DNA of 64,000 nucleotides from NCBI RefSeq assembly GCF_027587195.1, contig NZ_JAPDDP010000028.1:1-64000 (forward strand). Reading direction: 5' to 3'. The stretch comes from Solirubrobacter phytolaccae (lineage in GTDB: Bacteria > Actinomycetota > Thermoleophilia > Solirubrobacterales > Solirubrobacteraceae). The stretch's first letter is position 1. Each line of letters opens with the position of its first letter. Below are positions 2,574 through 61,003 of the stretch, one piece after another. The notes beneath the pieces were generated by a model, which was not told where the DNA came from, made no database searches, and saw only the letters and a program-made list of their open reading frames with translations. The position numbers were made by a program, and so were the translations under genes.

Positions 2574-3750
2574 TGTCGGGCACGCTGAGCAGGCCGAGGA
2601 TCACGACGAGCGCGAGCCCGAAGGCCAGCCACAGCGCGGTGCCGACCCCGAGCAGACCGGCGATCGGTCCCCACAGGGCGACGCCGAACGACGAGAACAC
2701 GAGCGAGCCGAACCAGTCGTAGGAGCTCACGCGGGAGAGCGACTCGCGCGGGATTTGACGCTGGAGCGTGGACTGCCAGACCGAGGCGGCGACGGTCACC
2801 CCGATCGAGGACAGGAGGGCGCCGGCGGCGACCACCACGACCGACGGGCTCGCCGCCAGGCACGCGAGCGGCAACGCGAACAGCGCGTCCGCGATCGCGG
2901 CGAACAGCAGCGGGCGCCGCGGCTCGACCTGGGTCGCGATCAGGCTGCCGACGAGCGTCCCGATCCCCGCCGCCGCCAGGACCGTGCCCCAGGCGGCGGC
3001 GCCGCCGAGGTCGTCACGCGCGACGATCGGCCCGAGCACGAGCCACGCGCCCCAGAGCACGTTGCCGACCGCGAAGTAGGCGACGAAGGTCCACACCCAG
3101 CGGCGTGAGCGGAACGCGTCCCAACCCTCGCGCAGGTCGGTGAGGAAGGAGCTCGCCGCGACGGCGGCCACTCGCTTCGGCAGCCGCAGCAGCATGAGGC
3201 AGGCCGCGCTCACCGCGAACGTCGCCGCGTCCGCCGCCACCGCCCAGCCCGCGCCGGCCACGGCGATGAGCACGCCCGCCGCGACCGGCCCGAGGATCTC
3301 GCCGACGGACAGGACGGACGAGCGCAGCGCGTTGGCGGGCTGCAGCTCCTTCTCCGGCACGACTTCCGGGAGCAGGCCGGTCGACGCGGGGCTGAAGAAG
3401 CCGGTGGCCGCGCCGCTCACCGCGGCCAGGAGCGCGAGCATCCACACCTCGGCGACGCCGCCGATCAGCAGCGCCGCCATCGCCCCCTGGCTCGCGACCC
3501 GCACCAGGTCGGCGAGCACCATCACCGTCCGCCGCGAAGCGCGGTCGGCGACCACGCCGCCCACGAGCACGCAGCCGACCAGCGGGATCATCCCCGCGGC
3601 GAGCACGAGCCCGACGGCGGAGACCGAGCCGCCGATCTCCAGCACCGCGAAGGCCAGCGCCACGGCGACCATGCGGTCGCCCAGTCCGGACATCGCCTGG
3701 CCGCTCAGCAGCAGGGCGAACTCGCGCCTGCGCAGAACGGCGAGACTCAC
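2554..3750 (-). CDS. MFS transporter, probable drug or solute exporter
   Basis: A 398-residue membrane protein with about 12 predicted hydrophobic segments, of the DHA3-like branch of the major facilitator superfamily (the group containing MefA-like and enterobactin exporter-like proteins). The motif-A-like loop [14 protein letters not shown] lies between segments 2 and 3 near residue 65. Substrate cannot be told from sequence. The start lies 6 bases downstream of the flavoprotein stop at 3757, so the two minus-strand genes are probably cotranscribed. Its 3' end overlaps ilvD. Confidence 0.85.
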
Positions 3751-3756
3751 AAGGCG

Positions 3757-4920
3757 TCAGACCCTACCGAGGACCTCGATGGCGTCCGTGCCGGTGCCGA
3801 GCGGGACGTTGACGGGCGTGCCGGCCGGGCGACCGTCGGCGGCGTCGAGGCCTTCGACGTAGCCCGCGAGCTCACGGCCGGCGATCTTGGCCGGCGGCCA
3901 CCACAGCGCGCGGCCGGCGACCTCGCCGCTGCGCATGTACCGTGCCCAGCGCTCGGTCAGGAGCATCCCGCGCAGGACCGGCGTGAACGGCTCGGGCGTG
4001 ACGGGCGCTCCGGCGCGGGCGGCGATCTCGGCCGCGGCGGCGTCGGCCTGCTGGCAGGCGATCCCGCCCTGTTTGACCGGGTAGTCGGTCACGTCCCCGG
4101 CCGCGTAGACGTCGGGCGCGCCGAGCACGCGCGAGTGCGCGTCCGTGGGCAGGAAGCCGGCCGGGTCGGCCGGGAGGCCCGGGAGCTTGGGCCCTTCGAG
4201 CCGGGGCGCGGAGACGATCCGCTCGACGTCGAGCAGCGTCTCACCGGCGCGCACACGGCCCGGCGCCACGATCTCCGCCTCGACGCCGGCGTGCAGCATG
4301 ATCCCGGCCTGCGCGAGCAGGAACGACAGCTCGGTCGACGCGTCCTCGCCGAACAGATCGAGCGGCCCGGCCTCGGGCGTGACGAGGTGGATCTGGGCGT
4401 CCACGCCCATCTGGAACGCGCGCTCGGCGAGCATCAACGCCAGCTCGTACAGCGGCAGCGGCCACGTGGTGCCGGGCGGGACGACGAACGCGATCCGCTT
4501 CAGGTAGCCCTCCTCGATGTCCTGGACGATGCCGTGCAGGCGCTCCTGGGCGGTCTTGGAGCCGGTGAACGCGGTCGCGGCGGCGAACGGCTCGACCGGA
4601 CGCGCGCCCGACGCGATCAGCAACGCGTCGTAGCTCAGGCGCGAGCCCGCCACCGTCGTCACCTCGTGCGCGACGGGATCGACGCTCGCCAGCCGCCCGC
4701 GCAGGTGCGTGAAGCCGACGTCCGCGGCGATCCGGTCCAGCGAGTACGTGGTCGCGCCCCCGGCCGCGAACGGCGACAGCACGCTCAGCGGCCGGTACGT
4801 GAGGTCCGCCTCGGGCGCGAGGAGGGTCACCGCCACACGGTCGCCGGCGAGGCGGCCGAGGGCGAGTGCGGCTTCGACGGCGGCGGGGCCGCCGCCGGCG
4901 ATCAGGACGCTGGTGGGCAT
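3757..4920 (-). CDS. FAD/NAD(P)-dependent oxidoreductase, sulfide:quinone oxidoreductase-like fold
   Basis: A 387-residue flavoprotein of the pyridine nucleotide-disulfide reductase superfamily. The N-terminal dinucleotide-binding motif is VLIAGGGPAAVEAALALG (residues 5-22), and the second FAD motif is DVYAAGDVTDYPVKQGG near residue 280. It resembles NDH-2/SQR-type enzymes in layout. It has only one cysteine that I can see (in GGIACQQAD), so the catalytic cysteine pair of true sulfide:quinone oxidoreductases is absent. It is a clear paralogue of the protein at 34181-35338. It probably forms an operon with the MFS gene downstream. Electron acceptor and substrate are unknown. Confidence 0.8.
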   Translation of the reverse strand: MPTSVLIAGGGPAAVEAALALGRLAGDRVAVTLLAPEADLTYRPLSVLSPFAAGGATTYSLDRIAADVGFTHLRGRLASVDPVAHEVTTVAGSRLSYDALLIASGARPVEPFAAATAFTGSKTAQERLHGIVQDIEEGYLKRIAFVVPPGTTWPLPLYELALMLAERAFQMGVDAQIHLVTPEAGPLDLFGEDASTELSFLLAQAGIMLHAGVEAEIVAPGRVRAGETLLDVERIVSAPRLEGPKLPGLPADPAGFLPTDAHSRVLGAPDVYAAGDVTDYPVKQGGIACQQADAAAAEIAARAGAPVTPEPFTPVLRGMLLTERWARYMRSGEVAGRALWWPPAKIAGRELAGYVEGLDAADGRPAGTPVNVPLGTGTDAIEVLGRV

Positions 4921-14378: not shown

Positions 14379-14426
14379 GCGGTTAGCGTCGCATGAGAGG
14401 GTGTCACCGAGGAAGAGGGGTTGGGA

Positions 14427-17348
14427 ATGAGCAGGTGCGTCGGGGTCGCGGTCGCGGCCGTAGCCATGCTGTTGGCGTTCGCGGGGGTCGCGAACGCGCA
14501 GGAACGGCTCCCGGAGCCGAAGGTCGTCCCGATCCAGGTGACCGGGCCGCCCACGGAGCGGTTGAACATCATCGTGATGGGCGACGGCTACCAGAAGGAC
14601 CAGCAGGAGATCTTCCGCCGCGACGTCGACCGCAACCTGTCGGTGATGTGGGCGACGGAGCCGTTCCGGTCCTACCGCAACTACATCAACATCTACGCGG
14701 TCGAGATCGCGTCGGTCGACTATGGCGTGCGCTGCGACCCCGACGGCCGCAAGCGGCACGCGGACGGCACGATCCGCGACACGGGCGAGCGTGAAGGCCC
14801 GATCAACACCAAGCAGACCGCGCTGAAGATGGTCTACGACGGCGGCTGCAGCGACCCGCTGGCGCGCGGCACCGTCTACGCGCGCGACCGCGCGCCGAAC
14901 TGCGCCAACTACGCGGCCTACTACCCCGAGGGCGTCAACCCGTGCGAGACGGGCGACGAGGCACACGCGCGGATCGTGACCAACTACGTCTCGCCGGTGC
15001 TCGGGATCCCGCGCACCGCGCAGAACCTGCAGACGCTCGCGATCTTCAACACCTTCACCTACGGCGGCATCGGCGGCGTCCAGGCGACGACGTCCGGCGG
15101 CTCGCCGCAGGGTCCGCTGATCTCGCTGCACGAGCTCGGCCACTCGCTCGGCACGATGGCCGACGAGTACCCGTACCAGTCGCGTGACGTGGTCCGCAAC
15201 TGCTACACCGGCAACGAGGTCGGCTCCTTCCACCACTCGATCTACAGCGCGGCCGAGCTGCTCACGCGCCAAGCCAAGTGGTGGCGCTGGATCGGCGAGG
15301 ACAGCCTCTCCGGCGGCAAGATCGGCGCCCACGAGGGTGGCGGCACGTACCCGTGCGGCCAGAAGCGCCCGTCCTCGCACTCGATCATGCGCTGGATCGG
15401 CTTCGACTGGGACCAGGTCGGCCTCGAGCACATGGTCGCCCGCATCACCGGCATGCGCAACTCGGGCCAGATGAACGTGCAGAACACCGCGGTCGGCGCG
15501 GTCGCCAAGGACCAGGTCCTGTGGGTCGAGCCGGGCAACCCGCGCTTCCACGACGTCAAGGTCACCTGGCGCACCGGCGGCGCGACCGGCCCGGTCGTCG
15601 GCACCGGCCGCAATCTGGACCTGGAGCCGCTGAACCTCCCCGCGGGCACGGTCGTGCACGCCGAGGTCCGTGACCCGATCGGCCCGGACGGCGAGGACTG
15701 GGTCCGCAACCCGTCGACGAACAACAGCTCGACCGACTCGGGCTTCAACGGCTCGCGCTTCGTGCAGACGCGCACGTGGACGGTCGGCGACACGACGGTC
15801 ACGCCGGGAGCGGCCGCGGCCGACATCGTCCGGCACTCCGTCAACACGCGTCCCGTCGCCCAGGACGAGGTCGTGTTCGTCAACACGAACCACCCGCTCG
15901 ACAAGGTCCTGCCGGTGACGTGGACGCTCAACGGCGCCGCGCTGCCGAACCCGGGCAACAGCCGCACGCTGGACCTCGGCACGCTGGACCTGCCGGTCGG
16001 CACGCACACGCTGGTGGCCACGGTCACCGACGGCGCCGCGTCGGACTCGGTCGAGTGGAAGATCGACAACGTCGACCCGACCGCCCACCGCACGCTGGCC
16101 ACTCCGCTCACGACCTCCACGACGGCCGCGGGCCAGGGCATCTACTTCGACGGCTGGGACATGCTCCTGGACCCGAAGGACGACACCACCGGCTACGAGG
16201 GCACGCCGGCCGTCGTCGGCCAGCTGCGCCTCGACGGCGACGGCTGGTTCAACTACTTCGGCTTCCCGGAGAAGCCGATGCCGCAGTCGCCGTACGAGTT
16301 CCGCCACTCCGGCCAGGTCGTGAAGGCGCTCACCTACGGCAACCTCGGCACCGGCGGCGTCTCCAAGGCCGGCTTCGAGCAGACCCTGCCCGACACGCAT
16401 CCGGGCGGCGGGTTCATCCCCGGCTTCGGCACGCACACGGTCGAGCACCGCGCGATCGACCCGGCCGGCAACTACTCGATCCCGGAGTCCTACAAGGCAA
16501 CGGCGCTTCCGGGCGCGGCGCTGACGTGCGGCACGACCGTGACGGGCACGCAGTCGGCGGTCAACGTGACCAGCGGCGTGACGTGCGTGAGCGGGGCCAC
16601 GGTCAGCGGCGCGGTGACGGTCGCGGCCGGCGCTTCGGTGCTGGTCCGGAACTCGACCGTCGGCTCGCTGAGCGCGACCGGTGCCGAGGCCGTCCAGGTC
16701 ATCGGCTCCACCGTGGGCGGCGCGGCCAAGGTCGAGAACTCGACCAAGGACGTCACGATCGCGGGCTCGACGTTCAACGGCGGCCTGACGCTGAGCGGCA
16801 ACACGCAGGTCACGGCCAACGAGCGCTACTCCCGCCTGGCGGGCGCGTACGGCCCGATCCTGGCCGGCAGCACGATCAAGGGCGCGCTGGTGTGCGCGGG
16901 CAACAGCGCCGCCGTGAAGGACTTCGGCGCGGCGAACAAGCTCGGCAGCAGCTACAGCGGCTGCGCGCTGGCGTCCTCGGTCGGCGGCGAGACCACGCCG
17001 TCGGGCACCGTTCCGGCGACGCTCTCGCTGTCGCTGGGCACGATCCCGTCGCTCGGCTCGTTCGTCCCGGGTGTGGCGCGCGAGTACACGGCGACCACCG
17101 AGGCGACGGTCATCTCCACCGCGGGTGACGCGACGCTCTCGCACAGCGATCCCGGCCACCTGGCCAACGGCGCGTTCACGCTCGCCGAGCCGCTCCGCAT
17201 CGAGCTGGCGAAGTCGTCGTGGACCGGCCCGACCTCCAACGAGAAGGTCGGCATCACGTTCAAGCAGCTCGTGAAGGCCAACGACCCGCTCCGCACGGGC
17301 TCGTACAGCAAGACGGTCACCTTCACGCTGTCGACGACGCAGCCGTAG
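14427..17348 (+). CDS. secreted M64-family metallopeptidase
   Basis: About 973 residues. The ATG at 14427 has a good ribosome site (GGAAGAGGGG, 14411-14420) and is followed by a Sec signal peptide of about 25 residues ending in VANAQ. The catalytic domain matches peptidase family M64 (IgA-peptidase-like): [11 protein letters not shown] near the start and the zinc motif [14 protein letters not shown] with His235, Glu236 and His239. The middle contains beta-rich segments of unknown family. The last 112 residues (from about 862) form a module also found at the end of the secreted protein at 59294-61003. A strong hairpin follows the stop codon. The native substrate is unknown. Confidence 0.88.
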
Positions 17349-59293: not shown

Positions 59294-61003
59294 GTGATTC
59301 GCCAGATCGTGAGCGCGGCGTTCGTCGCCGCGCTGCTCGCGCCTGCCGTGGCGCAGGCGCAGGACCAGCCACTCGCGCGCGTTGAGCTGAACGCCGACCA
59401 TGCCGGCGAGGCCAAGCTCGCCCTGACCGCTTCCGCCCCCGGCGCCGACTGGCAGCTGGCGGGCAAGGAGTCCGCCTTCCTGGAGGTCCAGGTCGACGGG
59501 AAGCCCGTGACGAACGTCGTCACCTTCAACGGCCCCGGGCCGTTCACGTACGAGGTCGCGCTCGGTCGTGTGAGCGCCGGCAAGCACGACATCACGGTCA
59601 CGCTCGACGCGGCCAAGTCGCCGGTCGACGAGGCCGTGATCAGCAAGCTCGAGCCGTCGCTCGCGCCCGCCGACGACATCGTCGCCCGCTACGCGCCGAT
59701 CCTCTACGGCCGCAACCTGCCGGAGGTCCCGGGCGCGTTCGAGAACGTCAACACCGACGTGCCGATCCTCGCGTACCACACGTCCGCGGCCGACGCCCAG
59801 GGCAACCGGGTGATCGAGTACACGGTGATCTGGTCCAACGAGGACGGCGGCACCAACACGCCGTCGCTGATGGCGCGCTGGGGCCGCACGACCGACATCG
59901 AGTGGTTCTACCGCGTCACGGTCGACGCGCAGGGCAACCGCATCACCGACGCCTTCCAGGCGCTGAACCACGGCACCGAGGCGTTCAACGGCGTGCGCGA
60001 GGACGACCACCCGCTGATCCAAGTCGCCTCGTCCAACAACAACATGGTCGCGGTCACCGACGTGGCCACCTCCTCGGGCTACCGCTTCTTCCTGGAGACC
60101 GGCGACCGGCTCCCGGACAACCGCGCCCGTGAGGTGATGATGGACCAGAACCCGTGGACCTACGGGCTGATGGCCAAGGAGATGGTCCGCGAGGGCAAGG
60201 TCGAGACCGTCCCGGACCCGGACACGCAGACGATGTCCGACCAGCGCAACTACCTGTTCGCCGAGCTCAAGAAGGCCACGAGCTACGCCACGGCGCCGCC
60301 GGCGGGCAGCTGGGCGGGCGTCGCGCTCGCCGCCAAGGTCGGCGACCGCTGGTACACGTCCAACAAGGGCGTCGCCGGCTTGTCGATCGAGCGCGACCTG
60401 GCCGCCGCCACGACGATCGAGCTGCCGGTCGGCACGACCCCGGCCAACATCTCCGCGATCAAGGCGTTCGCGGTGCCGAACGGCACGCCCGGCGCGTACA
60501 GCATCGACGTCACGTCGATCAACCGCGGCTTCAAGCTCGGCGCCGACTTCATGCCGGGCGTCTCGTTCCTGAACTGGAAGGGCAAGGAGACCCTCACGCC
60601 GGCGCGCACCGAGGTGATCCTGTGGGAGAACGAGAACGTCGTCGAGGCGCCGGTCGGCGGCTCGGTGCCGGCCACGCTGTCGCTCACGCTCGGCGCGCCG
60701 GCCTCATTCGGCGCGTTCACGCCGGGCGTCGAGAAGACGTACACCGCCTCGACCTACGCCGACGTGGTGTCCACCGCCGGTGACGCGAGCCTCGCCGTCG
60801 GCGGGCTCGGCCACCTGACCAACGGCGCGTTCAGCCTGCCCGAGCCGCTCCAGGTCTCGCTCTCGAAGTCGTCCTGGGCGGCGCCCGTCAGCAACGACCG
60901 CGTCGCGATCGGCTTCAGCCAGAAGATCAACGCCAACGACGCGCTGCGCACCGGCAGCTACGCGAAGACGCTCACGTTCACCCTCTCGACCACCACGCCA
61001 TGA
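59294..61003 (+). CDS. secreted protein of unknown function with the shared C-terminal module
   Basis: A 569-residue protein with a signal peptide (IRQIVSAAFVAALLAPAVAQAQ). Residues about 25-125 look like a beta-sandwich (VELNADHAGEAKLALTAS). The middle block VARYAPILYGRNLPEV, with AYHTSAADAQGNRVIEYTVIWSNEDGGTNTP, is a domain I do not recognise. Residues about 459-569 are the same module as at the end of the M64 peptidase (VPATLSL...STAGDASL...GHLTNGAFSL...TFTLSTTTP). It starts 36 bases after the lysine operon; functional linkage is doubtful. Confidence 0.82.
   Translation: MIRQIVSAAFVAALLAPAVAQAQDQPLARVELNADHAGEAKLALTASAPGADWQLAGKESAFLEVQVDGKPVTNVVTFNGPGPFTYEVALGRVSAGKHDITVTLDAAKSPVDEAVISKLEPSLAPADDIVARYAPILYGRNLPEVPGAFENVNTDVPILAYHTSAADAQGNRVIEYTVIWSNEDGGTNTPSLMARWGRTTDIEWFYRVTVDAQGNRITDAFQALNHGTEAFNGVREDDHPLIQVASSNNNMVAVTDVATSSGYRFFLETGDRLPDNRAREVMMDQNPWTYGLMAKEMVREGKVETVPDPDTQTMSDQRNYLFAELKKATSYATAPPAGSWAGVALAAKVGDRWYTSNKGVAGLSIERDLAAATTIELPVGTTPANISAIKAFAVPNGTPGAYSIDVTSINRGFKLGADFMPGVSFLNWKGKETLTPARTEVILWENENVVEAPVGGSVPATLSLTLGAPASFGAFTPGVEKTYTASTYADVVSTAGDASLAVGGLGHLTNGAFSLPEPLQVSLSKSSWAAPVSNDRVAIGFSQKINANDALRTGSYAKTLTFTLSTTTP

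Follow-up and report, generated by a model that had tools for sequence, protein, structure and literature searches.

Two exported proteins of Solirubrobacter phytolaccae end in the same module

We analysed a 64,000-nucleotide stretch of Solirubrobacter phytolaccae DNA (contig NZ_JAPDDP010000028.1, positions 1 to 64,000; hereafter the window), in which an M64-type peptidase and a second exported protein end in the same 112-residue module. As set out below, we infer that the module is a lineage-specific C-terminal docking tag, carried by about 145 exported proteins of this genome, with a candidate receptor family. The open reading frames (ORFs) and features concerned are:

14421..17348, forward strand: M64-type peptidase ORF ending in the module; 975 residues from a putative TTG start; PF09471, E 4.9e-22
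14421..14498, forward strand: signal-peptide-like N-terminus of the M64 protein; boundary drawn by eye on the sequence; the ORF passes the signal-peptide heuristic
16890..16997, forward strand: predicted-disordered stretch 5' of the first module; AlphaFold2 predicted local distance difference test (pLDDT) score 53–67, no strands
16998..17009, forward strand: PSGT, the local form of the module-opening VGG[TS] motif; from upstream column counts and alignment
17010..17345, forward strand: first C-terminal module, 112 residues, short form, ending at the last codon before the stop; from searches and structure model
59294..61003, forward strand: second exported-protein ORF ending in the module; 569 residues, no Pfam or NCBIfam family
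60653..60664, forward strand: VGGS motif preceding the second module; from sequence and upstream column counts
60665..61000, forward strand: second C-terminal module, 112 residues, 59% identical to the first over 101 residues; from own-genome search

The kinship on which the original prediction rested proved real: the two modules share 59% identity over 101 aligned residues (E 3e-43), and their first bearer is indeed an M64 peptidase by its PF09471 match. The modules lie where they had been placed, except that the claimed starts, 17008 and 60664, miss the reading frame by 2 bases and by 1 base, respectively; the correct frames are 17010–17345 and 60665–61000. No Pfam or NCBIfam family was matched at E ≤ 1 by ORF 59294–61003, including the 450-residue part before its module (59294–60652).

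At least 145 predicted proteins carry the module without a tail

A protein search of the window's genome gave 173 matches, and a profile of 70 modules (A1) gave at least 148, fragments included. As the profile count comes from the best 150 of 231 candidates, own-genome counts are lower bounds. The neighbourhoods of the 150 listed matches, with further ones, yielded 139 module ORFs on 105 stretches, each with exactly one module, no residue after it and proline as the last residue. Six more ORFs from a further list, whose other two rows repeat earlier loci, end likewise, so that at least 145 proteins of this genome, and not two, end in the module. The same tail-less ending in proline was found in 40/40 modules from named Solirubrobacter species (33 loci) and in 25/25 modules of another genus genome, G398 (20 stretches), in line with the claim that the module is always C-terminal.

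The bearers are predominantly proteins with a signal-peptide-like start (130 of 139 ORFs against 89 of 761 control ORFs by a simple heuristic, the controls being mostly not genes), and three of the nine failing ORFs are cut at a locus edge. No LPXTG sortase signal with its hydrophobic stretch and basic tail was present: in each of the 139 ORFs the C-terminus is that of the module, most often LSTTxP, and a hydrophobic tail is lacking. What precedes the module is diverse: the three thirds of the set matched 61, 51 and 59 Pfam families (overlapping between thirds), and by BLAST the cargo of the 139 ORFs falls into 70 clusters. Among the families are M14, M1, S15, M6, M36 and S8 peptidases, amidases, rhamnosidases, GH10, ThuA, sugar dehydrogenases and metallophosphatases, as well as PKD, CBM6 and CBM35 domains.

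Two length forms account for nearly all modules: 88 of the 139 have 111–117 residues (64 of them exactly 112) and 50 have 123–141, carrying an insert before a WTGP-like motif; one has 97. The conserved block opens about four residues earlier than had been thought, with V-G-G-[TS] (Gly at −2 in 130/139, Val at −4 in 100/139), so that the Gly/Ser linker originally proposed is partly a conserved motif. Its glycine part stood: in the 20 residues preceding the module, Gly and Thr each make up 16%, against 10% in whole proteins. Ser is hardly enriched there, at 7.6% against 6.6%.

No Pfam or NCBIfam model covers the module, which is not part of a known catalytic family: among 70 modules, at most two shared any Pfam family (best E 0.0016) or any NCBIfam model (best E 0.011). 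The A1 profile found no match among PDB sequences, and the module was unmatched in plasmids at E ≤ 1. None of four small relatives or stand-alone modules had a Pfam hit at E ≤ 10. Titles and abstract openings retrieved by our literature searches held no description of the module.

Amplification of the module is a trait of the genus

All seven genomes of the genus Solirubrobacter bear the module, with 69 to at least 150 matches each. Across the family it was found in 15 of 146 genomes, the eight bearers outside the genus (of 139) having one to three copies, and we therefore regard amplification as a genus trait. A sample of 396 genomes of the phylum contained four with the module, all from the same family; a search of genome contigs with a single protein, which reaches close relatives only, returned 33 loci, all Solirubrobacter.

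We compared modules on orthologous cargo in two samples. For 29 cargo pairs at loci picked for their likeness to the window module, average module identity was 75% to a non-orthologous module of the same genome and 71% to that of the ortholog, a sample biased by the way it was found (33/40 had any match, and pairs below 200 bits were dropped). In G398, where 22 of 25 modules from the genome's best profile matches were kept as reciprocal-best cargo pairs, identity was 80% for the module and 84% for the cargo; a non-orthologous module was closer in 6/22 and the length form differed in 2/22. On the G398 pairs, the module mostly passes down together with its cargo and is occasionally replaced.

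The module is predicted to be an Ig-like domain

AlphaFold2, given 38 sequences, predicted the module with a pLDDT of 95.5 and a predicted template modelling score of 0.83, as strands only, in agreement with the all-beta character originally assigned to it. With 40 extra upstream residues, these were placed at pLDDT 53–67 and without strands; the module's own linker is thus not predicted to complete the fold. Foldseek found no PDB match at E ≤ 0.001. Its top rows were chaperone–usher pilins (best E 7e-3), and VIA-align on the Foldseek list ranked the Csu pilin 7zl4_B best (Z 8.6, 105 aligned residues, root-mean-square deviation 2.3), with further pilins and a PapD-like ASH domain (Z 7.8) behind it; the scores are modest, and a VIA Z of 7 to 8 may reflect a common arrangement. 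The PDB fold matches listed include no WxL structure, which is no evidence of a difference in fold. The module is predicted, with confidence, to be an all-beta domain, and its fold is predicted to be immunoglobulin (Ig)-like.

Module relatives lie beside two-Ig proteins homologous to WxLIP

Papers on the WxL proteins describe WxL as always C-terminal and WxLIP as a two-Ig protein with a C-terminal helix (PMC10599100, PMC9772566), a helix that the authors doubt enters the bacterial membrane (PMC10599100, PMC9772566). An AlphaFold2 model of the WxL–WxLIP pair is reported in which a WxLIP strand fills a gap in WxL and completes the sandwich (PMC10599100).

Proteins of WxLIP type recur at module loci in two forms, one bearing a transmembrane segment and one soluble. 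Weak matches to PF06030 in the window's genome pointed to a transmembrane-bearing protein (w218; L218:2549-3478, reverse strand), encoded on contig C95 directly 3' of a metallophosphatase–module gene. Relatives of w218 occur in five of the seven genus genomes, with a module gene adjoining in all five (L226–L231), and one lies behind a metallophosphatase–module gene in another genus (G410, L162). The w218-type partner at L228 (G400:C18:32667-33485) contains an in-frame TAG and might therefore be a pseudogene or reflect a faulty assembly.

Among the few modules outside the genus are stand-alone proteins, consisting of a signal peptide plus the module, beside soluble secreted two-Ig proteins. A profile built from four of the latter (A6) matched 19 of the 146 family genomes, namely all 15 that bear the module and 4 of the 131 others (Fisher 4e-17, or 2e-10 without the genus, relatedness being ignored). 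Three of the four genomes with A6 alone (G450, G411 and G509) have small module relatives, W-bearing or similar, beside the partner, and in the fourth, G381, a WxL gene above the Pfam cut-off adjoins WxLIP. By coordinates, no more than 1.75 kb separates the partner from a module gene in all eight bearers outside the genus. In all seven genus genomes the order is PapD-like gene, stand-alone module gene, PapD-like gene, the upstream gene of G399 being taken from coordinates only.

Profile comparison related both forms to WxLIP. Nineteen partner sequences, mostly of the soluble type, aligned by hhalign to actinobacterial WxLIP over 213 columns with a probability of 96.7% (E 4e-10; score 78.7 against a maximum of 26.0 in 100 shuffles), and the w218 type did so at 99.7% (E 4e-27). 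The reference alignment comprised six rows from five loci, one protein being repeated, and all five pass the PF06030 cut-off; the w218 and w217 proteins themselves fall below it. No PapD Pfam family was matched by the 16 partner-type proteins scanned (2+6+8). We regard this secreted two-Ig-domain protein, homologous to WxLIP, as the likely partner of the module.

Small relatives of the module carry W-x-L motifs

A family of small secreted proteins shows significant kinship with the module (hhalign 98.3%, E 2e-14), and the reverse search returned modules at E 3e-16. Its genes lie just 5' of the partner in seven genomes (G612, G509, G404, G272, G450, G411 and G121). The modules themselves lack the two W-x-L motifs, reading DATL and FTL at these places, with no Trp. 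In the small relatives the first place reads SWTL (three), NWTL, LWTL or AWTL in six of the nine inspected, and SSTL, GWQV and SWGM in the remaining three; the relative at L262 has NWTL and also TWDL near its end. Because such W-x-L-bearing relatives adjoin the partner, we take the module for a W-less relative or analogue of WxL that has a homologous partner; descent from WxL is no more than plausible. Comparing the W-bearing small relatives with WxL directly did not rescue the link (score 19.7 against a maximum of 15.7 in 60 shuffles, probability 1.8%), nor did a larger module profile that included distant relatives.

Membership of the module in the WxL family proper, PF13731, was considered and rejected on sequence, there being neither a Pfam match nor a significant hhalign alignment.

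At L290, L291 and L262 (G404, G272 and G450, of different genera) the W-bearing small protein and its PapD/WxLIP-like partner adjoin an SmpB-like gene, recognized by motif match only. The window's own genome also has a second pair, of more classical WxL type, at L217 (G000:C136:92000-101000; 3064-4756, reverse strand), where a small WxL-like protein (PF13731 E 2e-4, below the cut-off) lies beside a transmembrane-bearing WxLIP-like protein and the pair adjoins a GH10-plus-module gene. Searches with the small WxL-like protein gave two chance-level rows only among PDB sequences and one chance-level match only among plasmids; a WxL-end DNA pattern was not found in viral contigs.

A probable docking tag for exported enzymes

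Since module relatives adjoin proteins related to WxL binders, we read the module as a probable docking tag. That it keeps exported enzymes at the cell surface through a WxLIP/PapD-like partner strikes us as somewhat better than an even bet. A module-bearing enzyme would be exported by Sec or Tat, its tag would be captured at the surface by the partner, some copies of which have a C-terminal transmembrane segment, and the enzyme would be kept at the wall, the role also proposed for WxL domains. The surface-retention or secretion signal of the original prediction would be compatible with the strict C-terminality, with the diverse exported cargo and with a WxLIP-homologous partner that has a transmembrane segment in several loci; that prediction, which named neither the scale nor the partner, is partly supported.

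More speculatively, capture could proceed by strand donation, a strand of the partner completing the Ig sandwich of the module; this would account for the absence of even a single extra residue after the final strand. Carried over from the WxL–WxLIP pair, this step would fit the pilin-like fold, the absent tail and the linked partners. We hold only tentatively, and with more doubt than belief, that some 145 enzymes carry an incomplete pilin-like Ig plug into which a handful of WxLIP/PapD-family membrane or wall proteins donate a strand.

Several observations weigh against docking on such a partner. PF13731 was not matched by any of the 70 modules at E ≤ 10, and hhalign against nine actinobacterial WxL or WxL-like sequences gave probabilities of 1.5–2.4%, which are not significant, with scores of 18–20 slightly above the shuffle maxima of 15.9 and 16.7. 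The fold scores are modest and the Ig-like sandwich is common. Genus genomes hold three or four A6 partners against 69 to at least 150 module matches, most of the 145 own-genome module genes have no adjoining partner, and the transmembrane-bearing w218 type is absent from two of the seven genus genomes. A simple hydropathy scan found no transmembrane segment that might anchor the soluble partners beside stand-alone modules.

The module might instead bind glycans, as a carbohydrate-binding module (CBM) does, and hold enzymes near their substrate or the wall with no need of a protein partner. Glycoside-active proteins, or proteins with CBM6, CBM35, rhamnosidase or GH10 domains, make up many of the cargoes, and WxL itself is described as peptidoglycan-binding (PMC10599100). 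However, the module also ends M14, M1, S15, M6 and M36 peptidases, amidases and phosphatases, its strict, tail-less C-terminality is unusual for a CBM, no CBM family was matched among 70 modules, and its recurrent linkage is to WxLIP homologues; we consider glycan binding unlikely. The scale, the cargo diversity and the C-terminal position would also suit a signal that a dedicated machine for export or sorting reads and may then process, in the manner of the type IX secretion system C-terminal domain. We think this improbable, as N-terminal signal-peptide-like starts already explain export, although type IX cargo has these too, and these bacteria are regarded as monoderm.

Slightly less probable again is a polymerizing pilin-like domain, with module proteins, the stand-alone module and PapD-like chaperones forming enzyme-bearing surface fibres. 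A pilin-type fold is the best structural match and soluble PapD-like genes flank the stand-alone module gene in 7/7 genus genomes, but no N-terminal donor strand is predicted, disorder being modelled for the 40 residues before the module, and no usher or sorting component was identified, none having been searched for.

Likeness to known systems

The docking tag would most resemble the WxL (PF13731) and WxLIP (PF06030/PF11797) proteins of Bacilli. Both systems have C-terminal domains on exported proteins, in stand-alone and large versions; for the module this is borne out by 145/145 copies with no tail and 130/139 signal-peptide-like starts. Module relatives are likewise encoded beside a WxLIP-family two-Ig protein (8/8 genomes outside the genus, and the core locus in 7/7 within it), and the terminal beta strands resemble each other in pattern. 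An abrupt end in proline is shared by six of the nine actinobacterial WxL or WxL-like ORFs that we used. Unlike WxL, the module reads DATL and FTL and occurs in about 145 copies on enzymes, where WxL forms a few adhesin clusters.

Chaperone–usher pilins (CsuA/B, CfaB, FimA) are the best fold match, being Ig-like, and PapD-like two-Ig proteins lie near the module. The module differs from pilins as a C-terminal enzyme tag with no predicted N-terminal donor strand and a Z near the common-arrangement level, and its partner-type proteins lack a PapD Pfam match. With the type IX C-terminal domain of Bacteroidota it shares the use of one C-terminal beta-sandwich tag on very many diverse exported enzymes, whereas phylum, envelope and WxLIP-family partner differ.

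If the docking tag is right, a single docking rule would cover some 145 exported proteins in a genus of soil bacteria, and the unknown ones among them could be recognized by their sequence; WxL-type surface display would reach far past gut Firmicutes and past adhesins, taking in bulk extracellular enzymes; and the way in which a monoderm actinobacterium retains its degradative enzymes at the cell could be tested, for which a single small domain and one or two partner genes would be enough. If strand donation were also true, a plug-and-socket principle would unite WxL–WxLIP and chaperone–pilin pairing in one theme, and surface display by strand donation would be a main organizing principle of a monoderm exoproteome.

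A further gene at the partner loci

In two genera, an exported protein of 450–500 residues with a 'WACHG' N-terminus precedes the partner and module genes (L224:1602-3110 and L176:11-1378). It matched no Pfam family at the cut-off and probably belongs to the partner/module locus.
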